Source of the DNA: Photobacterium sp. CCB-ST2H9
Lineage (GTDB): Bacteria; Pseudomonadota; Gammaproteobacteria; Enterobacterales; Vibrionaceae
DNA length: 64,000 bases
Direction: 5' to 3'
NCBI RefSeq assembly: GCF_023151555.2
Contig: NZ_CP100425.1
Span: 1,550,001-1,614,000, forward strand
The stretch's first letter is position 1; each line of letters opens with the position of its first letter. The translations under genes were made by a program, and so were the position numbers. Shown here piece by piece: positions 3,404-64,000 of the stretch. The notes beneath the pieces are model-generated. The model saw nothing but the letters and a program-made list of their open reading frames with translations. It made no database searches and was not told the origin of the DNA.

Positions 3404-3459
3404 ATTGCGACGTCACTTATTCAAAAACACGATGATGTACAGTCAGGTTCTGGCCACAA

Positions 3460-4650
3460 TTAGTGTCCATAGCGCTGCTGCCATGCAGCCTCCAGCGCGG
3501 TTTGCCAGCTTGGATGAGGCTCGGCAATGGCCTGATAAAGCTGGAAGCCCTGAGTTTCTTCTTCAGAACCCAAGGCTTCCGGGGTCAGAATGGCCGGGTC
3601 ACCCCAAATTTGAATATTGGACTTGCGGGCCTGTGCTTCCGGGCTCATCAGAAAATTAATCACGACACGGGCGGCTTCTTTGGCACTCGCATTCCATGGA
3701 ATCGCCAGAAAGTGAATGTTCGACAATGCGCCCTGTTCAAAAGCAAAAGCTTTGGCAGTGGCCGGTAAATCCCCCCGTTCGATAGCCGCTTTTGCTTCGT
3801 TCGGATTGAAAGTGATCGCGACCAGAAGCTGCCGGTCATCCAGCAGCTGCATCATTTCAGTAGCACTGCCCGGGAAACGTTTCCCCTGTTGCCAGGCAAC
3901 CGGATGCAGCTGGTCCAGATATCGCCACAGCGGCGCCGTGATTTGATCAAATTTTGCCTTCTCTTTTTCCGGATCGATCGGTTCATAAAGGGCAGGGGCA
4001 GCATTGGTCAGCTCAATGAGTGCCGCTTTCAGGAAACTGGTGCCATGAAATGCTGGTGGCTGCGGGTAAGTGACTTTCCCCGGGAATGCTTTTGCGAGAC
4101 TTAGTAGTTCTGCAAAGCTTGCGGGCGGATTGCTCAGGGTCTGACTGTCATGAATGAACACCAGCTGACCGACTCCCCAGGGCGCTTCCAGGCCATCAGT
4201 GCTTTCCGTAAAATCTTCATAAACAGGCAAGCGTTTATCGACCAGCTTCCAGTTCGGAAGCTGAGCCACAAACGGACCATCCAGAAGTTCGTTGGTTTTC
4301 ATCGTGCGGAAGTTTTCGCCATTGATCCAAACCATATCGACACTACCGCCTGTATTTTTTCCGGCAGTTTTTTCCGCAAGTAAGCGTTGGGATGTCTCGG
4401 CAATGTCGGCGACTTTGACGTGATTCAGCGTAATGTCGTAGCGGCTTTTAACCTCACGGGCAACCCAGCGCAGGTAACTGTTGATAGGCTGGCTCCCGCC
4501 CCAGGCATTGAAAAATACGGTTTGTCCGCGTGCACGCTGCTGAATGTCTTTCCAGCTCATGTCACTCATTGCAGGTTGATTCTGAGCTTCGCTTGCCATC
4601 AGCGGGGACGCTGCCAACGTCAGGCAAAGCGCCATCCATGTTAATTTCAT
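3460..4650 (-). CDS. ynjB: ABC transporter periplasmic substrate-binding protein YnjB
   Basis: This is the periplasmic solute-binding protein of the Ynj importer. The chosen ATG at 4650 is preceded by AAGGAAA at proper spacing and gives a 396-aa protein with a clear signal peptide ([19 protein letters not shown], cleavage about residue 19-20). An upstream ATG in the same frame would add 27 basic residues and lacks this ribosome site. The mature part has features of the large type-2 periplasmic binding fold, including the early NAWGGS segment typical of YnjB/ThiB-like proteins. It lies 13 bases downstream of the VTT-oxidoreductase gene, so all are probably co-transcribed. Confidence 0.9.
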
Positions 4651-4663
4651 GATGATTATTTCC

Positions 4664-6883: not shown

Positions 6884-7491
6884 CGGTGCTTATCTGCTTG
6901 GTGAGTGGGCTGATCGTGTTTGGTGTCGTTTTGTTTCGGTGCCGGTTGCTGACTTAGAGGAATCGAGCAGAATGCCTGCGAAGGGACATCCAAAGCGGTA
7001 TTAAACTTTGCAGACAGGTTTTGGAAACTGACTAACGCTGTCAGCTCGACCAGAGCATCTTCGTCATACCACTGTTTCAGATCATCAATCATCTGCTGAG
7101 TTACACGATTACCGGTGACTGTCATTGCTTCGGTATAGGCCAGTACTGCTTTTTCCTGAGTATCAAACAGCGGACTTTCCTGCCATTGAGTCAGGGCTTG
7201 TATTTTTTCGACTGATTGGCAGCGTTGCGCCAGTCTCATGCCATTGGCATCGACACAAAACGCGCAGTCGTTGAGCTGAGAAACACGGACGCAGACAAGG
7301 GATCGCATCACATCAGACAACGGTGATCGTTTTCTGTCTAAGTAACCAAAGAAACTGGCCACGAGGTAAAACAAGACGGGTCGGCGTCCCCAAAGTAAAG
7401 CCGGATTCAGCGGCTGTCCGAAATGGCGTTTTTGCAGCCAGAGCAGGGGACGGATTAAAATGGAGTAGCGTTTTTTTGCCGGTACACGCAC
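6880..7491 (-). CDS. ynjA: Carboxymuconolactone decarboxylase/AhpD-family protein YnjA
   Basis: This is an AhpD-like cytoplasmic protein (203 aa) and the first gene of the ynj operon. The AhpD motif appears as C76-A-F-C79, with Asn83 where AhpD proteins usually have His, so peroxidase-type activity is not assured. An AhpD-type helical core spans about residues 55-165, and a charged, Gln/His-rich tail follows. It starts with GTG at 7491; GGAG lies eight bases upstream, which supports this unusual start. The four-base overlap with the oxidoreductase gene suggests the AhpD-like CxxC protein and the flavin disulfide oxidoreductase could work as a thiol redox pair. That pairing is an inference. 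Confidence 0.85.
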   Translation of the reverse strand: MRVPAKKRYSILIRPLLWLQKRHFGQPLNPALLWGRRPVLFYLVASFFGYLDRKRSPLSDVMRSLVCVRVSQLNDCAFCVDANGMRLAQRCQSVEKIQALTQWQESPLFDTQEKAVLAYTEAMTVTGNRVTQQMIDDLKQWYDEDALVELTALVSFQNLSAKFNTALDVPSQAFCSIPLSQQPAPKQNDTKHDQPTHQADKHR

Positions 7492-7581
7492 TGGAAGTTC
7501 TCCGGAGAAAGCGGTTTATCATACCGACCGTTCAGATCCGGACAAATTTCAGAAATGGGGGGATTGATTTAGCTTTTGTGA

Positions 7582-7974
7582 TCAGTTGATTGAAAGTTGT
7601 ACAGTACGCGCAACCGGCTGATTGGTGAGTGAGCTGCGAGTATTGGTATCCAGCACCAGATATGTACTGGCGATGAGCTGCAACAGGGCAAGCAGGATGG
7701 TTTTGCCAATGTGATAGTTTCGATACCAGTATTTACGGGCTTTGATTTTCAGGATCAGGCCCCAGCTAATCAGCAGAATGTTGATTACAGAGGCAACCAG
7801 GCAAGAGGGAAGCAGGTTACTTTCCGTGCCGGTTGGTGTGTGCGCAAAGATGAGCAGAACGGCAGAAGGAAGCAAACTGATAAAGACCAGGTAGCGCATC
7901 AGTTTTGGCCATTTGTGGAATTTATCTTTGAAAATTGTGTCAGTCTGGCCCGGAAACGGCGTAGATGAGCGCAT
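7582..7974 (-). CDS. Hypothetical inner-membrane protein (130 aa)
   Basis: The protein is unrecognised. The ATG at 7974 sits just downstream of a near-perfect AAAGGAGG ribosome site, which decides against the ATG 30 bases upstream. Three hydrophobic segments are visible, at roughly residues 27-45, 55-75 and 90-108. A basic stretch (KIKARKYWYR) separates the last two and probably faces the cytoplasm. There is no catalytic motif. It lies 90 bases upstream of ynjA on the same strand, so it may share the promoter of the ynj operon. Confidence 0.6.
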   Translation of the reverse strand: MRSSTPFPGQTDTIFKDKFHKWPKLMRYLVFISLLPSAVLLIFAHTPTGTESNLLPSCLVASVINILLISWGLILKIKARKYWYRNYHIGKTILLALLQLIASTYLVLDTNTRSSLTNQPVARTVQLSIN

Positions 7975-8116
7975 ATGACCTCCTTTCTGATGCAAAACAT
8001 ACATTCTAAAGGCGGCGAAGCTGAAGAAAAGTTAACTGATGGAATTGTTATTAATGTTTGTGAGGTTTGTCTGTTTTTTACACAGCCCTGACAGGGTGCC
8101 AGGGCTAAAGCAGGTT

Positions 8117-8147
8117 ATTTAAAGCCAGTGCAAATCGCTGCACTGGC
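8117..8147 (-). terminator. Probable terminator of tfoY
   Basis: A nine-base-pair stem with a six-base loop (8124-8147) lies directly downstream of the tfoY stop and is followed on the minus strand by a T/A-rich tail. A second hairpin with a seven-base-pair stem (8084-8106) lies further on. The U-tract is short, so termination efficiency is uncertain. Confidence 0.55.
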
Positions 8148-8163
8148 AAAATAATCTGAATAC

Positions 8164-8775
8164 TTAGTGATGAGCGCCAGAATTGACTTCTAGTTTGGAC
8201 AGGAGCTCATTTCGACGTTGTGGGGTAATCACAGACCAGTGTTTTCCACTGACTGCGCCTTCTAACGCCCAAAGCAAATCCAGACTCAATGACTCGTGAT
8301 GAGATTCCTGCAGCGCCTGAAAAGCACCGATAGCACCAACTTCAAACAGCTGATCTACAGAGTTGATGCCTGCTTTCTTGAGCATACGCTCATTGGCAAG
8401 GCGAAGATTTGGCAGATCTTTAATGCGGTTAGGGCTAGCCTGCATTTTTTTCTCTTTGTCAGCCTGTGCTGCATTAAGAGAAACTTCAGCGTGCTCCAGA
8501 ATGACTTCTGGGGTTTCCCACCAGTTTTCCGGAATGGCATAGTGTTTTGTGACGACAGGAAAACCGCGTTTTTGATAAACGTACGGTTTGAGGCCAGCTT
8601 GTTTAAAGGTTTCTTCATTTTTCGCGTTAGCGCGCAGATGCAGCTTGTCGCTAACAACCAGAGCAAACATCGTTTCACCTGCGAAAATGCCAAAACCGCC
8701 AAACATTGAGCGAGATTTAATCTGGCCAAATTTCTCAAATAAACGAATTGAATCTTTCAGTAGTGGTTTGTCCAT
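8164..8775 (-). CDS. tfoY: TfoX/Sxy-family regulator TfoY
   Basis: This is a 203-aa two-domain TfoX/Sxy-family regulator. The N-terminal domain (about 1-100) carries the family hallmark RSMFGGFGIF near residue 22-31. The C-terminal helical domain (about 120-195) carries the LPNLRLANERMLKKAGI block. The protein alone could be called TfoX or TfoY. I call it TfoY because a cyclic-di-GMP-I riboswitch lies in its leader, as is known for V. cholerae tfoY and not for tfoX. In vibrios TfoY activates type VI secretion and motility when c-di-GMP is low. The ATG at 8775 (MDKPLLK) matches the family start; an ATG 30 bases upstream is less likely. Confidence 0.88.
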   Translation of the reverse strand: MDKPLLKDSIRLFEKFGQIKSRSMFGGFGIFAGETMFALVVSDKLHLRANAKNEETFKQAGLKPYVYQKRGFPVVTKHYAIPENWWETPEVILEHAEVSLNAAQADKEKKMQASPNRIKDLPNLRLANERMLKKAGINSVDQLFEVGAIGAFQALQESHHESLSLDLLWALEGAVSGKHWSVITPQRRNELLSKLEVNSGAHH

Positions 8776-8859
8776 GCTTCTTTTCTCGGTTAGAAATTTC
8801 AACAAAAGAAGTCACCAAACAACGGAGCGAGGATTCAATTGTGCATAAGATTATGAGTC

Positions 8860-8881
8860 TTTTGTCATAAGAATGACAAAA
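8860..8881 (-). promoter_or_regulatory. Perfect hairpin between riboswitch and tfoY
   Basis: A perfect nine-base-pair inverted repeat with a four-base loop lies about 25 bases downstream of the riboswitch aptamer and about 85 bases before the tfoY start codon. No T-run follows on the minus strand, so it is not a classical terminator. It could be part of the riboswitch expression platform or an RNA-processing or stability element. The role is inferred. Confidence 0.45.
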
Positions 8882-8904
8882 GTGTCCCATAAACTTCACT
8901 TCAT

Positions 8905-9012
8905 CCATCGGCAACCCCGCTACCATGAGTAATAACTTTATCACTAAGTCATTGCTTTTAGGCCGGAAGCTTTGCGTCCCATCCTTTCAGATGGTTTGCC
9001 TTGTTCGTGACT
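8905..9012 (-). ncRNA. Cyclic-di-GMP-I (GEMM) riboswitch upstream of tfoY
   Basis: Read on the minus strand, the leader contains the GEMM-I signature in order: a TCACG stem start, GGCAAACC, a P2 stem closed by a GAAA-type loop, the GGGACGCAAAGC core, TTCCGGCC, an AT-rich variable P3 extension, and the closing GGTAGCGGGGTTGCCGATGG. This order and wording match the c-di-GMP-I class. The P3 extension is longer than in the well-known V. cholerae Vc2 RNA. About 130 bases separate the aptamer from the tfoY start. The ligand assignment rests on established knowledge of the class. Confidence 0.93.
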
Positions 9013-9160
9013 GTTTAATCATATATCAATAAGACAAATTTGATATCGATCGCACAAAAAATTGTGATACTCTTCGCAATAAAAATCGTATAAATTTTAC
9101 AGAAACTAACTGATTATCCCATCAATTCCTCTGTAGCGTAGTAATATTCCATATAAACAT

Positions 9161-9186
9161 AGCCGATATGGGTGTTTATATCGGCT
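9161..9186 (-). terminator. Hairpin downstream of purR, possible terminator
   Basis: Nine-base-pair arms (9161-9169 and 9178-9186) with an eight-base loop lie 33 bases past the purR stop codon. The following minus-strand bases are A/T-rich but lack a continuous T-run, so the call is tentative. The rest of the 8776-9218 gap holds the tfoY leader and its presumed promoter. Confidence 0.45.
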
Positions 9187-9218
9187 GTTTATCAATATAT
9201 GTAGGTTAATATCGTTTT

Positions 9219-10229
9219 TTATGGATGTGTTATTTTTTTGACGGAACGGCGAACCACGAGCTCAGGATTGATCTCAAAAGTCTGAAATTCATGGTTTTTA
9301 TCTTTCACGCGTTCCATCAGAATTTCCACCGCAGTCTTGCCTAAACGGCGTTTTGGCTGGTGGATTGTTGTCAGAGGCGGTGAAAAGTACGGGGCCAGAT
9401 CAATATTGTCATAGCCAATAATTGAAATATCATTTGGTACATTGATCCCTGCTTGTTCAAATGTACTGATTAAGGCCATTGCCATAATGTCATTGAAGCA
9501 GAAAATAGCAGTTGGACGCTCTTTCATGGCAATAAAAGCATTGGCTGCATCTACGGCAGATTCACATTCGAAATCACCTTCAATGATCCAGTTTTCATTG
9601 ACCGTCAGACCAGCTTCGCTCATGGCTTTATGGAAACCTTTCAGCCGCTCACGGCAGGTAGATTTATCTTTCTGGCCGGAAAGACAACCAATTTTAGTGT
9701 GTCCATTGTCAATAAAATGACGAGTGGCAAGATAACCGCCAAGTTCTGCATTATCCTGAATATTATCTGTTTTTGGGCGTGCAGGACCCCAGTCCATGAT
9801 AACCATGGGCAGATCAGGCTGTCGCTCTAACTGTTCCAGCAGTTGATCATCCAGATCAGAACACATCACCAGCAGACCATCCACACGCTTTTCAGAAAGC
9901 ATGCGCAGGTAATCCTTCTGTTTGGCCAGATTACCTTCGGTGTTGCATAAAATCAGCGTATAACCGGATTTATAGCAGTACTCTTCAACGCCATGCACCA
10001 ACTCGGCAAAGAATGGGTTGGTCGATTTTGTCACCAGCATGCCGATGGTGCTGGTTGTATTACATTTCAGGCTGCGCGCGACGGCGCTTGGCGCGTAGTT
10101 CAATTCTTCAACTGCCGCCAACACTTTTTTCTGTGTTGCTTCCGCTACGAAGCGGGTTTTGTTGATCACGTGTGAGACTGTGGTAGTAGATACACCTGCC
10201 ATACGTGCAACATCTTTAATGGTTGCCAT
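9219..10229 (-). CDS. purR: LacI-family purine repressor PurR
   Basis: This 336-aa LacI-family repressor closely resembles E. coli PurR, which binds hypoxanthine or guanine and represses purine synthesis genes. The helix-turn-helix (residues 3-25, [20 protein letters not shown]) and hinge helix (SAVARSLK) are nearly identical to E. coli PurR, implying the same operator. In the corepressor domain, the equivalents of Phe74, Thr192, Arg196, Phe221, Glu222 and Asp275 are present. The position of E. coli Arg190 is Lys ([10 protein letters not shown] segment) and Tyr73 is Phe. The start MATIKDVA is the standard family start. A candidate PUR box lies about 170 bases upstream. Confidence 0.93.
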
Positions 10230-10398
10230 AATTGTTCTTCTAGTCTTCAGGCCCTGATCAGGGTCTTTTCATATTTGCCAGACGCTAAAACGCCGCTTCT
10301 CTGCGAGGATAGCGGCGGGAAATGAGTGGCTCAGGCCGAGTGGTAACAATACCTTACACCGATATGAAGTCTGACTTTCTATTGCTATTTATTTCATC

Positions 10399-10414
10399 GG
10401 TTAATCGCTTGCGC
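10399..10414 (-). promoter_or_regulatory. Candidate PUR box upstream of purR
   Basis: The minus strand reads GCGCAAGCGATTAACC, matching the core GCAANCGNTT of the PurR operator, with weaker outer positions. It lies about 170 bases upstream of purR, in a leader of about 345 bases (10230-10574) that also holds a GC-rich hairpin at 10293-10319. E. coli purR is autoregulated, so the same is inferred here. Confidence 0.4.
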
Positions 10415-10536
10415 TCACATTCTACAAGGACTCACGCACAGTGCAACGTTTCTCTTGAAATGTGAGGGGAATCTTGATGCAGCTCAAGAATACTGGCAAC
10501 TTGAAAGTTGTTTCAGTCTTTACATTGTAAGTGCTG

Positions 10537-10568
10537 TGCAAGGGCAACGGCTCCGCGATGCCCTTGCA
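10537..10568 (-). terminator. GC-rich hairpin just past hmuV
   Basis: A perfect ten-base-pair stem (10537-10546 with 10559-10568) starts six bases beyond the hmuV stop codon. No T-run follows on the minus strand. It may be a transcript-end stabiliser or a weak or factor-dependent terminator. Confidence 0.45.
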
Positions 10569-10574
10569 GGAGGT

Positions 10575-11396
10575 TCAGGCTGAAAGGACGATCGGAAAGT
10601 GCCCGCGGGGGTGAGATTCGATGATCACCGGGGAACCATAAACGGAGCTGATATTCTCGGTGGTCAGGGTATGCCAGGCATCACCGTCTGCTTGTATCTT
10701 CCCCTTATTCAGCAATACCAGTCTGTCTGCGTATTCAGCCGCAAGATTGAGGTCATGAATGACCAGGATGACGGCGGCTCCTTTACGGGCCATATCTTTT
10801 GCCAGTTTCAGGCAACTGTGCTGGTGGGCAAGATCTAAAGCTGAAGTCGGTTCGTCCAGCATCAGAATGCACTGGTCTTTAGCATTGCTGAGCTGAGCCA
10901 GTACACGGGCAAAATGAACACGTTGTTTCTCGCCGCCTGAGAGGGTGGGGTACTGACGCTGGCTCAGGTGACAGATCCCAACAGCCGTCATGCATTCCCG
11001 GGTAATTCGGAGACAATCTGTGCGCTTCAAACCAAGTGGCATACAGCCAAATTCAACGACCTCCTGCGCAGTAAAACCAAAAGACAGGCTGCTGTGCTGA
11101 GGAAGTACACCCAAGTGTTTGGCCAGCAGGGATGGCTGCCAGTCGCTGTGCTTTTGACCAAAATAGTATACATCACCTTTGGCACCAATTTCGCCGCAAA
11201 GCACTTTGAGTAAAGTACTTTTACCGGCACCATTCGGGCCGAGTAAAGCTGTTAACTCTCCGCTGCGGAAACTGATGTTCAGCTGATCCAGTAACGTTTT
11301 ACCGCCAAGTTGTAGTGATAAACCCTCGGCTGAAAGCACCGGTGATTGCTGTTTTTCGTGCCGGGGGCGAAGGGGGCGAACGATATGATGAATCAT
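10575..11396 (-). CDS. hmuV: Heme ABC transporter ATP-binding protein HmuV
   Basis: This is the cytoplasmic ATPase (273 aa) of the heme importer HmuTUV, which moves heme from the periplasm to the cytoplasm. It has Walker A GPNGAGKST (53-61), the signature LSGGE in the segment YPTLSGGEKQRVHFARVLAQL, Walker B CILMLDEPTSALD, and the H-loop in LVIHDLNLAAEYADR. The ATG at 11396 overlaps the hmuU stop as ATGA. A longer frame reading upstream overlaps hmuU by 270 bases and is not credible. It is the last gene of the hmuTUV operon. Confidence 0.93.
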   Translation of the reverse strand: MIHHIVRPLRPRHEKQQSPVLSAEGLSLQLGGKTLLDQLNISFRSGELTALLGPNGAGKSTLLKVLCGEIGAKGDVYYFGQKHSDWQPSLLAKHLGVLPQHSSLSFGFTAQEVVEFGCMPLGLKRTDCLRITRECMTAVGICHLSQRQYPTLSGGEKQRVHFARVLAQLSNAKDQCILMLDEPTSALDLAHQHSCLKLAKDMARKGAAVILVIHDLNLAAEYADRLVLLNKGKIQADGDAWHTLTTENISSVYGSPVIIESHPRGHFPIVLSA

Positions 11397-12475
11397 TGTA
11401 AACGGCCTTTTTGTTTCAGTAGCAGAGCTATAAAGAACGGTGCTCCCAGTAAAGCGGTGATGATACCGACCGGCAGTTCGGCAGGTGCGGCAATAACACG
11501 GGCCAGCATGTCGGCAACCAGTAAGATAAGTGCCCCCAGTAAAGCCGAGAGTGGCAGTAATGTTTTGTGATTCGGGCCTGCCAGCATACGGCCGAGATGC
11601 GGCACAATCAGACCGACGAAGCCAATCACGCCGGATAAGGAGACAGCGACACCCACACCAGCGGCGCAAAATAAAATCAGCAATCGTTTTAAAGACTGGA
11701 CCTGAATGCCGAGATGTTTTGCTTCTGCTTCGCCCAGTAATAAAGCGTTGAGTGCATTGGATCTGCGATCAAATTGCCAGAACAGGAATGCCAGGGCAGA
11801 AAATGCCAGCGTGATGCCCGGCCAGGTAGCACCCGCCAGAGAACCCATGGACCAGAGTGACAGGTCGCGCAGCGCCTGATCGTCCGCAAAGAAATTCAGC
11901 AGTCCCAGTGCCGCACCTGAGAGTGCACTGATTGCAACACCTGCCAGCAGCATCACCGTCACGGAAGTGCCGGTCTTATCTGTGCCAAGGGCGTATACGA
12001 TCCAGGTTGTCAGGGCGCCGCCAAGAAAAGCAAAAACCGGTACTGTCCCCAGCGTTAAAAGTAATGGAAAAGATGCTGCCATTGAGCTGAACAGGACAAT
12101 GGCCGAAGCGGCGCCAAGGCTTGCACCGCCAGCGACCCCGATAATGCCCGGATCGGCCAGCGGGTTTCGAAACAGTCCCTGCATGACCGTGCCACAGAGC
12201 GCCAGAACTGCACCAATCGCGATACACAGCAGTGTGCGTGGTAAACGGACTTGCTGAATGATGAGTGCAATGTGCGGTGCGACATGATCCTGTCCCGGAA
12301 GCAGTGACAGCCAGACATCGGCGTAACTGATCGACATGGGGCCGACAACGATGGAAGAGGCAATGGCAAGTAACAGCATGGCAAAAACGGCGGGCAGTAA
12401 GGCAGTGGCTGGCAAACGCTGTCTGGTAAAGGTACGGCTGCGGTTCAAAGTTGTTGTCATAAGTTTACTGGCCAT
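11393..12475 (-). CDS. hmuU: Heme ABC transporter permease HmuU (FecCD family)
   Basis: This is an inner-membrane permease of the FecCD/BtuC family, about ten transmembrane helices over 360 aa. Family landmarks include RLPRTLLCIAIGAVLALCGTVMQGLFRNPLADPGIIG near residues 75-112 and GVIGFVGLIVPHLGRMLAGPNHK near 280-305; the latter contains the helix that docks on the ATPase. Two starts are possible. The ATG at 12475 lies inside the end of hmuT (11-base overlap), and the ATG at 12460 lies just beyond the hmuT stop. Neither has a clean ribosome site. The gene is coupled to hmuT and hmuV. Confidence 0.92.
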   Translation of the reverse strand: MASKLMTTTLNRSRTFTRQRLPATALLPAVFAMLLLAIASSIVVGPMSISYADVWLSLLPGQDHVAPHIALIIQQVRLPRTLLCIAIGAVLALCGTVMQGLFRNPLADPGIIGVAGGASLGAASAIVLFSSMAASFPLLLTLGTVPVFAFLGGALTTWIVYALGTDKTGTSVTVMLLAGVAISALSGAALGLLNFFADDQALRDLSLWSMGSLAGATWPGITLAFSALAFLFWQFDRRSNALNALLLGEAEAKHLGIQVQSLKRLLILFCAAGVGVAVSLSGVIGFVGLIVPHLGRMLAGPNHKTLLPLSALLGALILLVADMLARVIAAPAELPVGIITALLGAPFFIALLLKQKGRLQ

Positions 12476-13301
12476 ACAGTGTCTGATTCAGCCGCTCTGC
12501 TTCTTCGAGAGTTTTGAGGTTTAACCCGCCGATGAGTGCGGTACCATCCACTGTGATAATGGTTTTGTTTTGGCCGGCAGGTGTTGCAGCAAGCAACGGC
12601 AGTGTTTTCAGCAAGCCATCTTTGCCGCCAATTGACTGACTGGTATGCGTGCTGAGTAGGATCACATCGGGTTGCATTTCAACCATTGCTTCTGATGACA
12701 GTGGCTTATAAGCATCAATTTGGATCGCGGCTGGATTTAAACCGCCTGCGAGCTGAATCAGGGTATTTGCTGTTGTGTTGCTGCCACCGACCATTGGCGC
12801 TCTTCCGCCGTGAATGGTCAGAAACAGGATACGTTTTCTGCTTTTCTGGTTTGCAAGTCGCTGCTCAATCACAGAAATCCGATGTTGAACCTCAGCGGCT
12901 AACACTTCTGCGTTTTGTGTTTTTCCGGTCAGCTGACCGACTTGTTGAATCCGTTGCATCAGATCAGCAATGGTTTCACCTGAGTTCAGAATATCGACCT
13001 GAATGCCGGCCTGACGTAACAGAGAGAGTACTGACTCCGGGCCCATTTCTTCGGAGCCCAAAAGGTGATCAGGGGCAAGGGCAATGATACTTTCGGCAGA
13101 GAGCTGCCGATGATATCCCAACTTTGGTATGTCATCATGAACATAGGACTTGCTGGTTATATCAACAGCGACAAGTTGATCTTCTGCCCCCATCGCATAA
13201 ACGAGCTCCGTAATGCCTGAACCCGCACTAATCAATCGATCGCCTGCCCAGGCAGTCGCGGCAGTCAGAAGAAAAACAGCAGAAAGTGCCGCTCGTCTCA
13301 T
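12465..13301 (-). CDS. hmuT: Periplasmic heme-binding protein HmuT
   Basis: This is the periplasmic hemin-binding protein (278 aa) feeding the HmuUV importer. The ATG at 13301 follows AAGGAG and starts a signal peptide (MRRAALSAVFLLTAATAWA, cleavage near residue 19-20). The mature domain has the type-III periplasmic-binding-protein pattern (SAGSGITELVYAMGAEDQLVAVD, then the SAESIIALAPDHLLGSE segment). Tyr and His residues in the N-terminal lobe (KLGYHRQLS) are candidates for heme contact. It is the first gene of hmuTUV and is transcribed away from hutX across a region carrying Fur-like boxes. TonB/ExbBD genes, which precede this operon in several vibrios, are absent here. Confidence 0.92.
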   Translation of the reverse strand: MRRAALSAVFLLTAATAWAGDRLISAGSGITELVYAMGAEDQLVAVDITSKSYVHDDIPKLGYHRQLSAESIIALAPDHLLGSEEMGPESVLSLLRQAGIQVDILNSGETIADLMQRIQQVGQLTGKTQNAEVLAAEVQHRISVIEQRLANQKSRKRILFLTIHGGRAPMVGGSNTTANTLIQLAGGLNPAAIQIDAYKPLSSEAMVEMQPDVILLSTHTSQSIGGKDGLLKTLPLLAATPAGQNKTIITVDGTALIGGLNLKTLEEAERLNQTLYGQ

Positions 13302-13423
13302 GATAACTCCTTGTTTTTTATTTTGGGAAATTCCAGTGTTATCACCGGATGAACTAAAACGAACAATATTCATTGCGTAGAAAAGACAGTCTTCGCCTTC
13401 CCAAACAAGTTATTGCATTATAG

Positions 13424-13542
13424 GAAGTGATAATTATTATCGCTTGAGCATATTATCCATGGCTTTCAAATAATATCAATTATCATTTGCAAAAGAGTAA
13501 ATCTCTCCTTATCATTTTATGAAATAAGATTAATTCTCATTC
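13424..13542. promoter_or_regulatory. Cluster of three Fur-box-like sites between hmuT and hutX
   Basis: The intergenic region contains GATAATTATTATC (13429-13441), ATAATATCAATTATCATTT (13470-13488) and a weaker ATAAGATTAATTCTCATTC (13524-13542). All resemble the 19-bp Fur consensus built from GATAAT repeats. Their position between divergent heme-import and heme-utilisation genes fits iron-repressed promoters on both sides. Binding is inferred from sequence. Confidence 0.75.
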
Positions 13543-13581
13543 ATCCTATAGAGAGTGATGGATCAGGAAGGAGCGCAGCGC

Positions 13582-14115
13582 GTGTTTGAAAAATTCAGTC
13601 TTGCGGAATTGAAAACGAAAGTCGGCACTATGCTGGAAGAAAATCCAAATCTGCATGCGGTATTGATGGCTGAAACACTGGAAGTGACGGAAGGCGAGAT
13701 CATCATGGCGTTACCTGATGAACTTGTCACGCGAATCGGCGGAAATCACGCACAGTCAATTCTGGAAATGCTTCCGGAGTGGGGCGTGATGACGACAATT
13801 GTGCATTCAATGGGGTCTATCTTTGAAGTGAAGGCGCCGTTTCCGAAAGGTAAAGAAGCCCGCGGTTTTTACAATTTGATGGGAAAACCAGGTGAGATGC
13901 ATGGTCATCTGAAACTGGACCGGGTATCAGATGTCGTATTGGTGAGTAAACCGATGCGCGGAAATGAAAGTTACTTCATTGGTTTTCTGGCTGAAAACGG
14001 TGAATGTATTTTTAAGATTTATCTTGGCCGTGATGAGAAACGTCAGCTCATCCCTCAGCAGGTCGAGAAGTTTAATGCATTAAAGCAAGCTTTTGTTGGA
14101 GTAGAAGCGTCATGA
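13582..14115 (+). CDS. hutX: Heme utilisation cytosolic carrier protein HutX
   Basis: HutX is a cytoplasmic heme carrier that passes heme to the heme-degrading enzyme HutZ in V. cholerae. The conserved core is present: GGNHAQSILEMLPEWG, then SIFEVKAPFPKGKEARGFYNLMG, GEMHGHLKLD and FKIYLGRDEKRQLIPQQ. I place the start at GTG 13582, because AAGGAG (13568-13573) lies eight bases before it. In-frame GTG 13555 and ATG 13558 add eight or nine residues but have poor ribosome sites. hutZ overlaps its stop as ATGA. hutW, which usually precedes hutX in vibrios, is missing. Confidence 0.9.
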   Translation: MFEKFSLAELKTKVGTMLEENPNLHAVLMAETLEVTEGEIIMALPDELVTRIGGNHAQSILEMLPEWGVMTTIVHSMGSIFEVKAPFPKGKEARGFYNLMGKPGEMHGHLKLDRVSDVVLVSKPMRGNESYFIGFLAENGECIFKIYLGRDEKRQLIPQQVEKFNALKQAFVGVEAS

Positions 14116-55765: not shown

Positions 55766-55791
55766 TTGACCACTGCAACTATTCATATGAC

Positions 55792-55820
55792 AAAGCCTTG
55801 GCATAAGTCGGGGCTTTTTT
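55792..55820 (+). terminator. Probable terminator of the GMC gene
   Basis: A short stem (AAAGCC with GGCTTT, about 55793-55818) is followed by T residues. Confidence 0.6.
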
Positions 55821-56229
55821 AATTTAATCAGTATCTTATATCATTGTTCCTTTTATGTTATCGGCGCTTTTCTCGTTCTAATAGACTCACTTTATGCACC
55901 TTAGAATCTCTCCATGGTCCATATATGGTTCATCGCATGTCGATTCTGTGTGCGAGGGAATCCTAATCAATCCAACAAACTTCGGTTAGTGCAAAGTTGC
56001 AAGCTAGTACCGCCAAAGGCTTTGAGCGTGAAGAACCATGGTGACTTTACGGTGCTATGGGGTTTTGGTTTGCTTGATATGGGGTAACTGATCGTTTTGA
56101 TGGATAGTCGAAAAGTTGTTTTGCGATCGTTGGCTTTGAGGTTTGTGTTGTAAATGCCTTGGGGATATTCATTAACAAGTAATCACGCTCTGGCTTATGG
56201 TGATTGATATCTGTTTAATCAATCACCAA

Positions 56230-56526
56230 CTAAGTAACTATTGAAACTCCTTGCTTCGCTAGATTGTATTCCCTAAACGAAGTAATTCTTTCAGCAAGCA
56301 AATATAGCTGCTCTAAGCTCGCTGAGTGACGATTAGAGTATCTTCTGATGGTAAACGTCCAGGATGAGTGTGTCGGTGTAGCCGGGTCTGAGTCACATGT
56401 CTTGGGTTGGGGATCTATGCGAAATATAGGATCTAAACCCCTCGCTATCTTCAGAGATTGTATGATTGCGCGGGTGTAGTGGGATGAACTACAAGCCGAG
56501 TGTGGGATAGGGATTTTATTATTCAT
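56230..56526 (-). CDS. Doubtful hypothetical ORF (98 aa)
   Basis: This is the only sizeable open frame in the gene-poor flank. It starts with ATG without a ribosome site and encodes a Ser/Arg-rich sequence with a possible helical end (SLEQLYLLAERITSFREY). No family is recognised. It may be a remnant or chance frame. Confidence 0.25.
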   Translation of the reverse strand: MNNKIPIPHSACSSSHYTRAIIQSLKIARGLDPIFRIDPQPKTCDSDPATPTHSSWTFTIRRYSNRHSASLEQLYLLAERITSFREYNLAKQGVSIVT

Positions 56527-56707
56527 ATGTTACGACTTGAGCGTACAGTCCATCTGCTAGTTTCGTAACTTGCAGTTGGACAAAAGATAAGACCTGACTC
56601 CGCGCCTCCCTTGGCTTGGACGGCTATGCGTCCAAACGATCTAAAACCTTAAACTATTTGTGTTTTTTTTAAGCGCAGGGTATATTTTGAACAATTGTTA
56701 CTTTAAC

Positions 56708-56729
56708 TTATTGATATTGTTGGCAATAA
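56708..56729 (+). promoter_or_regulatory. Inverted repeat just before the hamA-like gene
   Basis: TTATTG and CAATAA form an inverted pair with a ten-base spacer, 17 bases before the start codon. AACAATTGTT, a perfect ten-base palindrome, lies just upstream (56690-56699). Either could be an operator or leader structure controlling the two-gene island. Confidence 0.35.
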
Positions 56730-56745
56730 GGTGGTTAAGGCTTAG

Positions 56746-57504
56746 ATGTTGAACTCAGAATGTATACAGCTTGATTCTTCAAGATCGTTGCACGTCATAG
56801 AAATTGAATCGATAACAGAAGATATAACGAAACTATTGGATAAGTATTTTGTTTCGATTTGTGAAGGTGATTCGGATAGCGAGATTAGCTTAGTTAAGAA
56901 AAGGCTGGCAAAGTTTCTTGAAACAAAAAACGAAGAAACACAAATGGGAGCTGTTGCTGAGTTCTTTGTTCATCTTTACTTGAATCAACTTAGCTTCAAG
57001 CAAGAGTTTCTATTTCTCAATTTAGAAGAAAACTCAATAAAGAAAGGTTTTGATGGTTTATTTTCAAAAAACTCTGAAACATTTTTAGTCGAAAGTAAAT
57101 CCGGTACGATCTTAACAAAGGACATTAGTCATAGAAAAAAATTACACACAGCATATACAGATTTGAAAAATTATGTGTCGGGTAAGAGCGAGAAGGGAAA
57201 GAACAACCCTTGGAGAAATGCTTATAACCATGCTAGTCATTTGGATGTGTGTACGGAGAAAGGAATAAGAAAAAAGATAGCAAAACTTAGGGATCTGTAT
57301 GATATGGGTAAGTATACAGATATAAAAGATTACAAAATAATCCCTTGCTCTACAATTTTTTTAAACTCTGTTTGGAATGATGATGAAAATTCAAAAATAT
57401 TATTAAGTCATGATTTTTTAAAGAAATATGACTGTGTAACATTAGATGCAATATGTATATCAAAAAAGAGTTTAGAACTGTTTAAAGAATATTTGGGTGA
57501 ATAA
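56746..57504 (+). CDS. hamA: HamA-like PD-(D/E)xK nuclease subunit of a Hachiman-type defence system
   Basis: This 252-aa protein is the first gene of the AT-rich pair. A PD-(D/E)xK nuclease core is visible: Glu72 in GAVAEFF, Asp103 in KGFDGLF, and Glu116-x-Lys118 in LVESKSG, followed by a helical region with the NPWRNAYNHAS stretch. This order matches the DUF1837/HamA family of Hachiman, where HamA is a DNA nuclease held inactive by the helicase HamB. The start ATG 56746 follows AAGG. Its last eight bases overlap the helicase gene. The HamA assignment rests on motif layout, size and partner, not a search. Codons are far more AT-rich than neighbours, suggesting horizontal transfer. Confidence 0.72.
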   Translation: MLNSECIQLDSSRSLHVIEIESITEDITKLLDKYFVSICEGDSDSEISLVKKRLAKFLETKNEETQMGAVAEFFVHLYLNQLSFKQEFLFLNLEENSIKKGFDGLFSKNSETFLVESKSGTILTKDISHRKKLHTAYTDLKNYVSGKSEKGKNNPWRNAYNHASHLDVCTEKGIRKKIAKLRDLYDMGKYTDIKDYKIIPCSTIFLNSVWNDDENSKILLSHDFLKKYDCVTLDAICISKKSLELFKEYLGE

Positions 57505-59971
57505 TTTGGCAATTTCGTTTAGTTGGCTTAAAGATGATGATAAGTTTTTCTCTTCAATGAAAAAAATGTCATTAAACACTCCTTTGAATGCTGAGGAAAT
57601 AGAGTATTTGCTTAGTTGTGCAGTGCTTTTTATTGAAGAGTATCATAAGGATAATCGTAAGCATTTATATTTTGAATTAGCTTATTTTATTGTGTTGAAA
57701 AGTGCAATTAATAATCATGAATACGAACCATTACTGGATGTAAGTTCTAATTTTGGCTTATACCCAATATCAAATTATATTACAAAGCACAATCTTTATA
57801 GCGGTAGTCTCTCTTCTGAATTTAGTCTTTTATATCAATTAAGTAAGTTTGAATACAATAGTATTATTGAAACATATGAACAAAGAAGCTCTAGATTACA
57901 ACTGGTCAATAGTGACGTTGAGGAAAATTGTTATATTGCACCAACATCTTTTGGTAAAAGCTCTCTTATTACAGAGATTATAAGAGAGAAAAATCTTAGT
58001 AAGGTAGCTATCATTGTTCCAACTAAGTCACTTTTAATACAGACTTACAAACTAATAAAAAACAATTTCTCTAATAGAAATATCATATTCCACGATGAGA
58101 TGTATGATGGTTCAGATAGTTTTATTTCGATATTCACACAAGAAAGAGCATTAAGACTTTTAAAAGATGAAAGCATTTCATTTGACTTGTTAATTATTGA
58201 TGAAGCTCATAACTTATTTAGCTATGATTCTAGAAGCTTACTCTTAACTAGACTTATTAGAAGAAATAGGAAAAGAAATCGCAATTCAGTAAATTACTAC
58301 CTTTCACCGTTAATTTCTGACTCTAATAATCTTAAAGTTGAAAGTGAACAAGAAATATTTGAAAAGAAAATTATTAGTAATATTAAAGAGGCTGATATAT
58401 ACGAATATAAAGAGTCAGGTGAAGTCAGGAAGTATAATCGCTTCTTAGATGTTTTCTTTGAGTCAGGGCGTAGTGATAATTACCTTAACTATATAATTGA
58501 AAATAGTAAGGAAAAAAATTTCTTGTACCTTCGAGCTCCTAAGAGAGTAGAAGAGCTATCCATACTTCTTGATTCAAAGCTAGAACACATTGGCTCCCCT
58601 AGTTTGATGGAGCTTTCAGATGTAATCTCAATGAATGTTCATAAAGATTTTTATTGTGTTGAATATATCAAGAAAGGGTTGGTTTATCTCCATGGGAAAT
58701 TACCTGATTTAATAAAGGAATATTTGGAGTTTAAATTTTCTGAAAATAAAGAAGTCAAATATGTAGTTGCTAATTCTGTTATACTAGAAGGTGTTAATTT
58801 ACCTGTTGATAATATGTATATAATGAATACTAATTCACTCGATGGTAAGTCTCTCACCAATCTTATTGGCAGGGTTAATCGATTAAATGAAGTATTTGAT
58901 GATGAAAGGAAGTCTCTAGACAAACTTCAACCTAGTGTTCATTTTGTTAACTCTGAAGATTTCAACCGTAGAGGTGGAAATATGGAGAATCAAATTAGAA
59001 AGCTAAAAAGTGGAGTGTTTAAAGATAATCTAGAAAATCCACTTTTAGTAAATTTTGATATAGATAAAATGAAACTGGATCTTGAAAAGGCTAAGGAAGG
59101 TTCTAAAATAGAAAGAGTTCTAACTCTAGAAAAAAAATTGGCTGAATATCAAGAGGTTAAAGAAACGGAAGATTTTCTTGTAACCAGTGAGTTAGATATC
59201 AAAAACCGAGTTAAAAGAATTCTGCTTGAGTCTGACATTCTATCTGTTTACTTTAGTTCTGGAGAAATGATCGATAGACTGTCGAATAAAGTTGACAGCA
59301 TATCACAACACCCTGAATGGGATGAGTCTCATATTATAGATAAGGTTTATTTGTTCTTTATTCAAGGTTTGGAAAGCTATATTTTTAAAAAGGACTTTCT
59401 GCGTTTACAGCATGACAAAGCGAGAGATTTCTACAAAATGTTTACTGGGAATCTCCATCGACTAAGTTTAAAAGAACATATATCAGATACCATTGGTTAT
59501 TTTCAAACTATTAAGTACTTGCCGCAAGGAAGAGAATTTTATATTGGGGATTCTTATGGAGAGGTTGGAAAAATAAATTATGATGGTAAAGTTGGAAAGT
59601 CTGTATATTTAGATCTTGCTACCAAATCAAACAAAGAGCTTGCTAATATTGCTTTAGTTAAAATAAAAATAGAGAGCGACTTTGTTTCATATACACTAAA
59701 TAATTTTATTAATGTGATGTATGACTTAAATCTTATTCCTGAAGAAGAATATGAGATTTATATTTATGGAACTACAAATAAATCTAACTCTGAATTTGTT
59801 AAGTTGGGTTTTAGTGGTTCTTTGATAAATAAGCTGGATCGAGACAGGCAGATGGAAAATTTATCTATCAATGATCATGGATTGGTGGAATACAATGGAA
59901 ATTTTGTTAACTATATAAAATCTCAGGATGATCTTATAAAGTTTGAAATAAGTAAATTTATAGATATATAG
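57497..59971 (+). CDS. hamB: HamB-like SF2 (Ski2-type) helicase of a Hachiman-type defence system
   Basis: This 824-aa helicase starts at GTG 57497, inside the end of the nuclease gene. Motif I is APTSFGKSS (148-156, Lys154), Ia IVPTKSLL (173-180), II DEAH (235-238). Domain 2 has a Ski2-like GLVYLHGKLP (394-403), motif V VANSVILEGVNLP (424-436) and motif VI NLIGRVNR (455-462). A C-terminal region of about 350 residues without known motifs follows, rich in Lys/Glu helices. In Hachiman, HamB scans DNA and releases HamA upon damage or phage attack. The overlap, stoichiometric coupling and AT-rich composition support one transferred unit. Confidence 0.75.
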   Translation: MNNLAISFSWLKDDDKFFSSMKKMSLNTPLNAEEIEYLLSCAVLFIEEYHKDNRKHLYFELAYFIVLKSAINNHEYEPLLDVSSNFGLYPISNYITKHNLYSGSLSSEFSLLYQLSKFEYNSIIETYEQRSSRLQLVNSDVEENCYIAPTSFGKSSLITEIIREKNLSKVAIIVPTKSLLIQTYKLIKNNFSNRNIIFHDEMYDGSDSFISIFTQERALRLLKDESISFDLLIIDEAHNLFSYDSRSLLLTRLIRRNRKRNRNSVNYYLSPLISDSNNLKVESEQEIFEKKIISNIKEADIYEYKESGEVRKYNRFLDVFFESGRSDNYLNYIIENSKEKNFLYLRAPKRVEELSILLDSKLEHIGSPSLMELSDVISMNVHKDFYCVEYIKKGLVYLHGKLPDLIKEYLEFKFSENKEVKYVVANSVILEGVNLPVDNMYIMNTNSLDGKSLTNLIGRVNRLNEVFDDERKSLDKLQPSVHFVNSEDFNRRGGNMENQIRKLKSGVFKDNLENPLLVNFDIDKMKLDLEKAKEGSKIERVLTLEKKLAEYQEVKETEDFLVTSELDIKNRVKRILLESDILSVYFSSGEMIDRLSNKVDSISQHPEWDESHIIDKVYLFFIQGLESYIFKKDFLRLQHDKARDFYKMFTGNLHRLSLKEHISDTIGYFQTIKYLPQGREFYIGDSYGEVGKINYDGKVGKSVYLDLATKSNKELANIALVKIKIESDFVSYTLNNFINVMYDLNLIPEEEYEIYIYGTTNKSNSEFVKLGFSGSLINKLDRDRQMENLSINDHGLVEYNGNFVNYIKSQDDLIKFEISKFIDI

Positions 59972-59980
59972 TTTTATTAA

Positions 59981-60020
59981 TAAGAGGTTGGCTATTATGG
60001 TGTTAACCTCTTATAAATTT
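59981..60020 (+). terminator. Probable terminator of the nuclease-helicase pair
   Basis: A nine-base-pair stem (59981-59989 with 60005-60013) with a 15-base loop lies ten bases after the helicase stop, followed by TAAATTT. The U-tract is weak. Confidence 0.5.
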
Positions 60021-60321
60021 GTTAGTAACCGCTCCTCGAGTTGAAATGATAAACCAGCTTAAATACTGAGGGTGTTCATAGTTCTGTGTCAGCGTAAGTC
60101 ATAGCTCCACATATTGAACGGCACTGTCTGAGATGTAAACCGCAGTTAACTTAGAGTAGTGCTTTTGTATCATATTAACACTGCTGCCATAGGTGTAACC
60201 CTCCCCTGTACTACACTTACCCCAGACATTTCGCTTGAAACCACCTCAGTTTCAGACGGATAAGTCATCTTTTTATTTCCGTTGACCCTGTTTGACCGAA
60301 CGCCTTTGACCGGAGTGAACC
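60021..60321. other. Intergenic region upstream of the formate channel gene
   Basis: About 300 bases with no gene seen. Composition returns toward the chromosomal average here, so the right edge of the AT-rich island is near 60020. I found no convincing FNR (TTGAT-N4-ATCAA) or sigma-54 site by eye. Confidence 0.45.
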
Positions 60322-61158
60322 ATGGCTGATCTTTTTGGGTTTGATGCGTTTTCACCGAAGCAAATCGCTGAAAAGGTGGACAATGTCGGCGTGATGAAAG
60401 CGCGTTTGCCACTGTTGTCGATGGTGATGCTGGGGGTGCTGGCAGGGGCGTTTATTGGCTTAGGCGCGCTGTATTTTGTGCTGATCAAGTCGGATGCGAA
60501 TCTGGGGTTCGGCACCAGTCAGATGCTGGGAGGCGTGGCATTTTCTCTGGGCTTGTTGCTGGTGGTGGTTGCCGGGGCTGAGTTGTTTACCGGGAATAAC
60601 TTGCTCGCGATGGCCTGGGCAGATCAAAAAATCACGACGGCAGAGTTGCTGAAAAACTGGCTGGTGGTGTGCGGTTCGAACTTTGTCGGAGCCGCGGGGC
60701 TGGCGGTGTTGGTGTATCTCTCTGGGCATACTTCGCTGAATCAGGGGAAGATTGCGGAGTGGTATCTTCAGATTGCGGCGGCAAAATGCAGCTTGCCATT
60801 TTGGACCGCTTTTTTCCGCGGGGTACTGTGCAATATTCTGGTGTGCATGGCGATTTGGATGGCCATGGCCGGACGGAGTGTGGTGGATAAGGCGATTGCG
60901 ATTGTTTTTCCGATCTCTGCCTTTGTTGCGGCCGGATTTGAGCACAGTATTGCGAATATGTTCTTCATTCCGCTGGCGATGCTGATTCAGACCTTTTCGG
61001 ATACGGCCACAGGGACAGATTCTGTCACCTGGATGGGGTTTATCGGGAATCTGATCCCGGTCATTCTGGGCAATCTGGTCGGGGGAAGTGTACTTGTTGG
61101 TCTGGTTTATTATGTGATTTACCTGAGAAAACCCGCTTCAGGCGCTGAAAAGCCTTAA
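60322..61158 (+). CDS. Formate/nitrite transporter family channel (FocA/FdhC-like)
   Basis: This 278-aa pentameric anion channel of the FNT family has six transmembrane helices. Family landmarks include GVLAGAFIGLGALYFVL in helix 1, the first re-entrant loop GAELFTGNNLLAMAWA, and FVAAGFEHSIANMFFIPLAM near residue 205, which holds the central His and pore elements. GGAG precedes the ATG. It lies directly upstream of a formate dehydrogenase gene, so formate is the likely substrate. Confidence 0.92.
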   Translation: MADLFGFDAFSPKQIAEKVDNVGVMKARLPLLSMVMLGVLAGAFIGLGALYFVLIKSDANLGFGTSQMLGGVAFSLGLLLVVVAGAELFTGNNLLAMAWADQKITTAELLKNWLVVCGSNFVGAAGLAVLVYLSGHTSLNQGKIAEWYLQIAAAKCSLPFWTAFFRGVLCNILVCMAIWMAMAGRSVVDKAIAIVFPISAFVAAGFEHSIANMFFIPLAMLIQTFSDTATGTDSVTWMGFIGNLIPVILGNLVGGSVLVGLVYYVIYLRKPASGAEKP

Positions 61159-61234
61159 TTCATCTGGCTATACGCGAAAGCCAAAAGTTGAGACAGAGAA
61201 ATGGCCGACCACCTCAAGTCACACGGACCGGGAT

Positions 61235-61243
61235 TGCTATACT
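61235..61243 (+). promoter_or_regulatory. Extended -10 element before the formate dehydrogenase gene
   Basis: TGCTATACT matches an extended -10. A start near 61250 would exclude the in-frame ATG at 61246 and favours translation from 61273. Confidence 0.35.
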
Positions 61244-61272
61244 GAATGCCAGAACCCGCTGTTGGATTGTGC

Positions 61273-63369
61273 ATGACCATGGCTTCTTCAATCGTGAAAA
61301 CTGTCTGTCCTTTTTGCGGCGTTGGCTGCGGGATCAATCTGAAAGTTGACGCGCAGGGAAATCTGGCGGGCGTTGAACCGCAACGCAGTCATCCTGTCAG
61401 TCGCGGCAAGTTGTGTGAAAAAGGCTGGAGCACGGCCTATGCTATCCGGCCGGATAACCGGATTACCGAGCCTTTAAAACGTATTCATGATCGTTTTTAT
61501 CCGGTGAGCTGGGATGAGGCACTGGACACTATCAGCGAGACCTTACAAGACATTCTGGCAGAATCCGGCCCTGAGTCGGTGGGTGTGATCAGCAGCGCCC
61601 GCGCCACCAATGAAGATAACTATGCTGCCCAGAAGTTTGCCCGTGCCGTCCTGAAAACCAACAACATCGACCATTGCGCCCGGATTTGTCACAGTCCCAC
61701 AGTGGCCGGACTCAAGCAAACGCTGGGTTCCGGGGCGATGACCAACAGCACCCAAGATATTTTTGAAACCGAGCTGATCGTAGTGATCGGCGCGGATCCG
61801 ACTGAAAATCACAGTGTCTTTGGTGGACAGATTTTTGAAGCGAAGCAGCGCGGGGCGAAGCTGGTGGTGATTGATCCCCGCGTCACCCGGCTGGCGAAAG
61901 TAGCGGATATTCATGTTCAGCTCAAACCGGGCAGTAATATTGCGCTCATCAATGCGATGCTCCATGTCATCCTCGAAAAAAATCTCCAGAATCAGTCTTT
62001 TATCAGCCAGCGGTGTGAGGGATTTGACGCGCTGGCCCGGAATGTCGCAACCATCACGCCGGAGTCGGTTGAATCCTGTACCGGCGTCAGTGCTGATGTG
62101 ATCCGTCAAACCGCGATGCTTTACGGACAGGCCCAGAGGGCCATGATCCTGTACGGGATGGGGATTACCCAGTTTGTCAGCGGTACCCAGAATGTGATTG
62201 CGTTGTCGAATCTGGCGCTGGTTTGCGGACAGATCGGCCGTCCCGGGACCGGAATCAATCCGTTGCGGGGGCAGAATAATGTGCAGGGTGCCTGCGACAT
62301 GGGATGCCTGCCGAATGTCTATCCTGGCTACCAGGCAGCCGATGATCTGGCAGTGCAACAGAAATTTACTCAAGCCTGGGGAACAGAAGTTGCAACCAAG
62401 CCCGGTCTCACGTCGCTGGGGATGACCAAAGCAACACTGGCGGGTGATTTTCGGGCCCTGATCATTTTCGGAGAAGATCCGGTCGTGACCGATCCGGATC
62501 AGAATCATGTCCGTGCAGCAATGAAAGAGATGGATTTGCTGGTGGTTGCGGAACTGACGATGACAGAAACCGCCAAACTGGCCGACTTCATTTTGCCTGC
62601 GGCTTCTTTCGCGGAAAAAGAAGGGACCTTTACCAACTGTGAGCGACGGGTCCAGCACGTGGCACAGGCGCTGCAACCGCCGGGTTCAGCCATGGGTGAC
62701 TGGCAGTGGCTCCAAGCACTGGCCGCGAAGCTAGGCAGCGATGCGCTGAACTGGCCAGACAGTGAAGCCGTGTTTGATGAAATGGCCTCACTGACGCCGT
62801 CTTATCAGGGGATGTCTTATCCGGGCATCATGCGTGCGCACGGCTTACAGTGGCCTTGTCATTCCGGCGCGCCTGAAGGGACCGCGATTTTGCATCAGAC
62901 TACATTTCCGATTGGTAAAGCTCGGTTGATTCCGGTGCATCAGATTGAAATTGATGAACCTGCTGATGAACAATACCCGTTGCTGCTGACCACCAACCGG
63001 CTTCATTTCCATTATGGCTGCGGCTCGATGACCCGGAAATCACCTTTGCTGGAGCGGGAAATACCGGCCGGACTCTTATTTATCAACCCGGAAGACGCCC
63101 GGACGCTGAATATTCAGCGTTATTCGCCGGTGGGTATTCGTTCGCGCCGGGGATATGTCGAGACGCGGGCCATGATCACCGAGGATGTGCCGCCGGGGCT
63201 GGTCGCCATGCCGTATCACTTCAGGGAAGCGCCTTCGAATCAGCTGACGAATACCGCGCAGGATCCTGTCACGAAAATGCCAGAACTGAAGGCATGCGCA
63301 GTGTCAGTGTCGCCGTTACCGCCGGGTCAGGAACCCCGGGGTATCGACCAGTTACGGGAGGAACCATAA
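61273..63369 (+). CDS. Formate dehydrogenase, molybdopterin-dependent catalytic subunit (cysteine type)
   Basis: This 698-aa molybdenum/tungsten bis-MGD oxidoreductase oxidises formate to carbon dioxide. The N-terminal [4Fe-4S] site is Cys12, Cys15, Cys19 and Cys48 (CPFCGVGCG ... GKLCEKG). The metal ligand is Cys139 in CARICHSP, where E. coli FdhF has selenocysteine, so this is a Sec-independent form. The conserved catalytic His follows it. The RGQNNVQGACDMG and C-terminal MGD-binding HFREAPSNQLTN blocks are present. I chose ATG 61273; ATG 61246 and 61279 are alternatives. It sits between the formate channel and a sulfhydrogenase-like subunit. Confidence 0.9.
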   Translation: MTMASSIVKTVCPFCGVGCGINLKVDAQGNLAGVEPQRSHPVSRGKLCEKGWSTAYAIRPDNRITEPLKRIHDRFYPVSWDEALDTISETLQDILAESGPESVGVISSARATNEDNYAAQKFARAVLKTNNIDHCARICHSPTVAGLKQTLGSGAMTNSTQDIFETELIVVIGADPTENHSVFGGQIFEAKQRGAKLVVIDPRVTRLAKVADIHVQLKPGSNIALINAMLHVILEKNLQNQSFISQRCEGFDALARNVATITPESVESCTGVSADVIRQTAMLYGQAQRAMILYGMGITQFVSGTQNVIALSNLALVCGQIGRPGTGINPLRGQNNVQGACDMGCLPNVYPGYQAADDLAVQQKFTQAWGTEVATKPGLTSLGMTKATLAGDFRALIIFGEDPVVTDPDQNHVRAAMKEMDLLVVAELTMTETAKLADFILPAASFAEKEGTFTNCERRVQHVAQALQPPGSAMGDWQWLQALAAKLGSDALNWPDSEAVFDEMASLTPSYQGMSYPGIMRAHGLQWPCHSGAPEGTAILHQTTFPIGKARLIPVHQIEIDEPADEQYPLLLTTNRLHFHYGCGSMTRKSPLLEREIPAGLLFINPEDARTLNIQRYSPVGIRSRRGYVETRAMITEDVPPGLVAMPYHFREAPSNQLTNTAQDPVTKMPELKACAVSVSPLPPGQEPRGIDQLREEP

Positions 63370-63371
63370 GA

Positions 63372-64000
63372 TGCAGCAGTATGTGCTGGAATCATTACAG
63401 GCGCTGCAAGTGCACTTGTCTCGGGCGCGGCAGTTCTATCAAGTGGTGGAAAGTGAAGGTGAGGCCTTCTGGCAGCATGTCCCGCAAGGGCCGTTTCCTG
63501 CGCTGACGTCGCAGCAACCCCTCAGTTCGGCGAAAGGATTCTTCTTTGCTGAGCAGGAAAGTCTGTATGTGTTCGATGGTCAGTTTTTCCGCGAAACGAT
63601 TCCGGCACCCGAGCCTTTTGTGTTATTCGGCGTTCAAAGCTGCGACCTGATGGCGATTCATTATCAGGACATTTTTTTCGAACAGGACCCTTATTATCAG
63701 GCGCGGCGGCAGCAGGCCTTACTGGTGGGGGTGGATTGCGTTCACCCGTGTGCGCAGGGCTTCTGCCATCTGGTGAATGCCGGACCGGGTGTCAGAGATA
63801 CCACGGCGGACCTGATTTTACATCCGCTTGAACACGAACAATGGCTGCTGATCGCGGTGACGGATGCTGGCAAGGCATCGCTGCAAGGACTGACGCTGAC
63901 GCCGGCTGCGGATCAGGACAAGCATTCGCGCTGGGATAACCTGAGCCATTGCGAGCAAGAGTTTGAGGATCAAACCTATATTCTGGAAGGCATTGAAAAG
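63372..64000 (+). CDS. Sulfhydrogenase-beta/AsrA-like 4Fe-4S subunit, partial (cut by window end)
   Basis: The open frame starts at ATG 63372, two bases after the fdh stop, and runs to the window end without a stop (210 codons visible). It begins MQQYVLESLQALQVHLSRAR. The segment LFGVQSCDLMAIHYQDIFF and the following LLVGVDCVHPCAQGFCHLV are typical of the beta subunit of sulfhydrogenases (HydB) and of anaerobic sulfite reductase subunit A. The two ferredoxin-type clusters expected near the C-terminus are outside the window. The coupling suggests electrons from formate pass to a multi-subunit redox partner, possibly a [NiFe] hydrogenase; this is inferred. Confidence 0.75.

Follow-up and report, generated by a model that had tools for sequence, protein, structure and literature searches.

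A probable divergent Hachiman defence system at a variable chromosomal site of Photobacterium sp. CCB-ST2H9

In the Hachiman (HamAB) system of Escherichia coli, the helicase HamB monitors intact DNA and is driven to hydrolyze ATP by a free 3' single-stranded end; the nuclease HamA, once triggered, degrades both phage and host DNA (PMC12278908). Two extended forms have been described, namely Hachiman type II, composed of HamA, HamB and HamC/DUF3223 (PMC8565338), and HamMAB, a nuclease-protease Hachiman (PMC12799240); a survey of Vibrio europaeus reports a single Hachiman_type_I, located in an insertion spot (PMC12824646). Here we analyze a pair of overlapping genes, encoding a nuclease and a helicase (Table 1), in a 64,000-nucleotide stretch of the Photobacterium sp. 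CCB-ST2H9 genome (NZ_CP100425.1, positions 1,550,001 to 1,614,000; hereafter the window). An earlier sequence-only reading had proposed that the pair is a transferred Hachiman unit, possibly of a divergent subtype. A literature search by title and abstract returned no study of this Hachiman branch.

Our analysis indicates that the pair is very probably a divergent Hachiman defence system. The observations behind this assignment are the relatedness in sequence and fold, the intact catalytic residues, the near-universal pairing of the two genes, their correlated divergence and their position in a variable site; from the analogy with E. coli HamAB we infer complex formation, the trigger, DNA cutting and protection against phages. 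The Hachiman call is supported for the helicase by PADLOC and structure comparisons, and for the nuclease by structure and profile-profile comparisons. Both proteins have many homologs (nuclease: 715 of 1170 candidates at E-value <= 1e-3; helicase: 1643 of 7990 scored sequences), thus the pair represents real, conserved genes. The second open reading frame (ORF) starts with GTG at 57497. The coordinates of both ORFs and the eight shared bases agree with the sequence-only reading, and so do the four nuclease residues it had named and the helicase motifs GKS (153-155, including K154), DEAH (235-238) and GRVNR (458-462).

Table 1. Features of the locus (positions in the window)
Feature	Position	Strand	Remarks
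hamA-like gene, unfused, 252-aa PD-(D/E)xK nuclease	56746..57504	+	E72, D103, E116, K118
hamB-like gene, 824-aa Ski2-like superfamily 2 (SF2) helicase	57497..59971	+	GTG start, 8-base overlap with hamA
Upstream region, possible promoter	56644..56745	+	partly conserved with Vibrio splendidus copy (blastn match to L018 starts at 56644; alignment)
Inserted variable segment between GMC oxidoreductase gene and formate/nitrite transporter gene	55767..60202		alignments to G019, G011
Remnant of one IS256-family element end, near right border, 70 bp	60067..60136		solo
Dispersed repeat, ~360 bp, left of the genes	55781..56140		also elsewhere in own genome

The helicase is matched by HamB family models (PADLOC HamB1, E-value 5.8e-42, 142 bits), and the 14 best of the 18 PADLOC families listed for it are HamB. 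Four canonical HamBs from the genus and order reach 754-1015 bits on their best model, hence the helicase must be regarded as divergent; the guess of a divergent subtype is supported. In structure, the helicase is most similar to a Hachiman helicase (8zue_B), with an alignment that runs from residue 8 to residue 824, and 8zue chain B is also a significant sequence match. With respect to the N-terminal helical domain (NAH) through which HamB binds HamA, the model exhibits helices at 9-117, and the 8zue_B alignment is known by its first and last aligned residues only. Among PDB sequences, the helicase family is matched best (8.9e-29) by the 853-residue chain of entries 9wh1, 9whk and 9whu. This chain is annotated as 'DNA polymerase theta (Helicase domain only)', yet in the aligned sequence it resembles a bacterial HamB; the annotation could be mistaken.

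A PADLOC run, proposed earlier as a check of both genes, identified HamB and not HamA: neither the HamA models of PADLOC-DB 2.0 nor Pfam PF08878.16 matched the nuclease or its 39 aligned relatives, and searches of Pfam, NCBIfam, PHROGs and PADLOC reported no credible family for it. The PF08878.16 search was repeated over 200 genomes of the phylum, since the run on the own genome had matched no control genome either. The best, weak PADLOC hit (CARF4--CARF_PDDEXK, 18.8 bits, 2.4e-4; matched by 8 of the 40 aligned sequences, at best with 5e-5) overlaps the nuclease region and was rejected as a family assignment, being read as a shared nuclease fold. By our own count, the newer PF08878.17 is the precomputed label of 54 of the 120 relatives listed, and two of the UniRef names there start with 'Anti-bacteriophage protein A/H' (one is truncated, the other reads 'HamA'); we take the lack of matches to HamA sequence models to reflect the limited reach of the older models.

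Likewise, neither the nuclease nor its alignment retrieved any PDB sequence at E-value <= 10, plain Foldseek gave no hit at E-value <= 0.001, and HamA structures were matched only in a second look with VIA-align, where 8zue_A (residues 262-533 only) tied with 8vx9_A as the best template; the identity to known HamA structures in these structural alignments is 8-12%. The hhalign comparison was weak with the first 40-row alignment (E-value 0.013, probability 3%), and the likeness to HamA stood out more clearly only once the alignment rows were more diverse and shuffled controls were included. Of the two signs on which the sequence-only reading had staked the Hachiman call, the DUF1837 profile match (PF08878.16) failed to appear, and the nuclease core was found: structure and profile-profile comparisons both reveal a HamA fold with a D...E-x-K active site. 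D103, E116 and K118 are invariant in 47/47 aligned sequences; in all 47, a hydrophobic or aromatic residue precedes the catalytic ESK, in the place of the Gly present in the seven canonical HamAs aligned.

This substitution, the very low identity and the miss by the HamA models of 2023 would also fit a separate nuclease-helicase family, in which a HamB-related helicase has independently recruited a PD-(D/E)xK nuclease with another trigger or target. We consider such an origin unlikely and assign the pair to Hachiman on account of its fold, its motif, its partner and the order of the genes, as a diverged form of this known system rather than a new kind. It is conceivable, albeit doubtful, that these proteins constitute a deep branch of their own within Hachiman, distributed over several bacterial phyla, with hydrophobic-ESK replacing GEXK, unseen by HamA models up to 2023 and maybe differing in the DNA trigger or in cutting. 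Hachiman counts that rely on 2023-generation sequence models of HamA would overlook this branch.

Compared with HamAB of E. coli ECOR31 (PDB 8VX9, 8VXA, 8VXY; PMC12278908), the locus presents the same two-gene arrangement of a nuclease and a Ski2-like helicase, a common HamA fold over almost the full length and the D...E-x-K catalytic residues. The HamA proteins are only 11-12% identical in structural alignments, with a hydrophobic residue here where ECOR31 has Gly before the catalytic E, and the helicase is shorter than the modelled chain 8vx9_B (1174 residues). The second reference, an E. coli Hachiman structure (8ZUE), shares the HamA fold in residues 262-533 of chain A, which has in addition a large N-terminal part, whereas HamA here carries no fused part and keeps its catalytic motif intact. 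Since chain A was matched over 262-533 only, we read 8ZUE as AbpAB-like, i.e. with a catalytically dead HamA-like domain fused behind another nuclease. The shared top rank of 8zue_A could hint that the Photobacterium HamA domain is likewise a structural adaptor, with the cutting done by another nuclease; however, the protein has 252 residues without a fused domain and its D...E-x-K residues, reported to be inactive in AbpA (PMC12278908), are invariant, and of the alternatives discussed here we give this one the least credence. The HamAB core is shared with Hachiman type II and HamMAB as well. No Pfam match to DUF3223 (HamC) was found in the three left genes, the two right genes and the small upstream ORF, no fused protease or MBL-nuclease gene occurs among the neighbors scanned, and the HamA catalytic residues are intact.

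Because the catalytic residues and folds of both proteins are conserved, the Photobacterium pair likely works as E. coli HamAB does. By this analogy, HamB would be bound to intact duplex DNA and keep HamA inactive, until phage replication or the breakdown of host DNA yields a free 3' single-stranded end that would enter HamB. ATP hydrolysis would then shift the HamB domains and activate HamA, which would cleave the DNA of both phage and host, so that the infection would end but the cell would be lost. The residues shared with the distant ECOR31 system (E72, D103, E116, K118) point to the indispensable parts of the mechanism.

One scan of named species genomes provided 53 loci, which, judging from record titles and general taxonomy, we take to include Gammaproteobacteria, an alphaproteobacterial metagenome-assembled genome, Campylobacterota, Bacteroidota, Bacillota and Gastranaerophilales/Melainabacteria. 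In 51 of them hamB lies directly downstream of hamA on the same strand; in the two exceptions the contig stops 147 bp past the hamA match (L060) or inside hamA (L070). Three loci (L022, L025, L067) have a split helicase match. Across 47 pairs (one from the window, the others from 46 loci), HamA distances correlate with HamB distances (r = 0.83), against a maximum of 0.18 in 2000 permutations. In a Helicobacter sp. locus (L069, ~10001-12022), a hamA match ending at residue 127 abuts a hamB match starting at residue 244, as if by deletion.

The helicase is similar to Hel308 and Pol theta, both of them repair helicases, which could suggest that the pair serves chiefly to limit plasmids or to repair host DNA instead of fighting phages. 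Such a role appears quite improbable in view of the patchy occurrence: of 40 genomes, consisting of the own one and those of 39 relatives, the own genome alone contains a full-length match to the helicase, and six others give partial matches of 26-35%, and the nuclease profile matches one of 200 phylum genomes, again the own one (compared with seven of 200 for PF08878.16, the own genome not among them), indicating that the branch is rare; moreover, the pair sits in a variable site.

The AT-richness noted earlier relative to both flanks was confirmed: the GC content of the pair is 0.301, versus 0.508 over 10 kb to the left of the insert and 0.544 in 60203-64000, and lies below every segment of equal length outside the insert (1062 segments, step 50, minimum 0.444). 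In 48/49 relative loci (those with a helicase match and at least 6 kb of flank) hamAB likewise has a lower GC content than its flanks.

The alignment to G019 ends at 55766 and that to G011 at 55765, and both restart at 60203, thus the island comprises the proposed gene pair within an inserted segment larger than had been stated. The GMC oxidoreductase gene on its left is present (E-value <= 1e-60) in 4/52 genomes of the genus, including the own one, and both flanks are kept in two other GMC-bearing genomes, G019 and G011. The site is variable, since between the same flanks G011, whose GMC match is partial, has 170 bp and G019 an unrelated 11.8-kb cassette (L071, G019:C21:137500-155500, 2150-13931); the locus therefore marks a small variable site with different cassettes in close relatives. 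The G019 cassette encodes a 1617-aa OmpA-domain protein, a 475-aa protein without a Pfam match and three lipoprotein-like paralogs of 390-393 aa, perhaps an effector-immunity cluster.

As the homology to the Vibrio splendidus copy spans 56644 to 59970, the moving unit is probably about 3.3 kb long. A consensus promoter scan found no site within the upstream region, and the number of sites in the promoter/terminator scan did not exceed that in shuffled sequences. The 0.9-kb stretch upstream of the pair, matched in 14/52 genomes of the genus (the own one counted), was rejected as a part of the system: its one scanned small ORF has no Pfam match, and it holds the dispersed repeat, which recurs with 78% match in the own genome (G000:C1:3314236-3314602) and, as fragments, in further genomes of the genus. 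As for a tRNA- or phage-borne island, which was likewise weighed, the window yielded no tRNA, and partial helicase matches (25-27% identical) turned up in just three phage records. The IS256-end remnant matches NZ_CP099736.1 at 87%, in a stretch that overlaps the end of a transposase gene of the IS256 family, and matches of 30 and 40 bp occur at two further places in the own genome. Elsewhere in the window, a c-di-GMP-I-GGC riboswitch aptamer (RF03167, 66 bits) lies at 8906-9009 on the minus strand, within a low-GC stretch.
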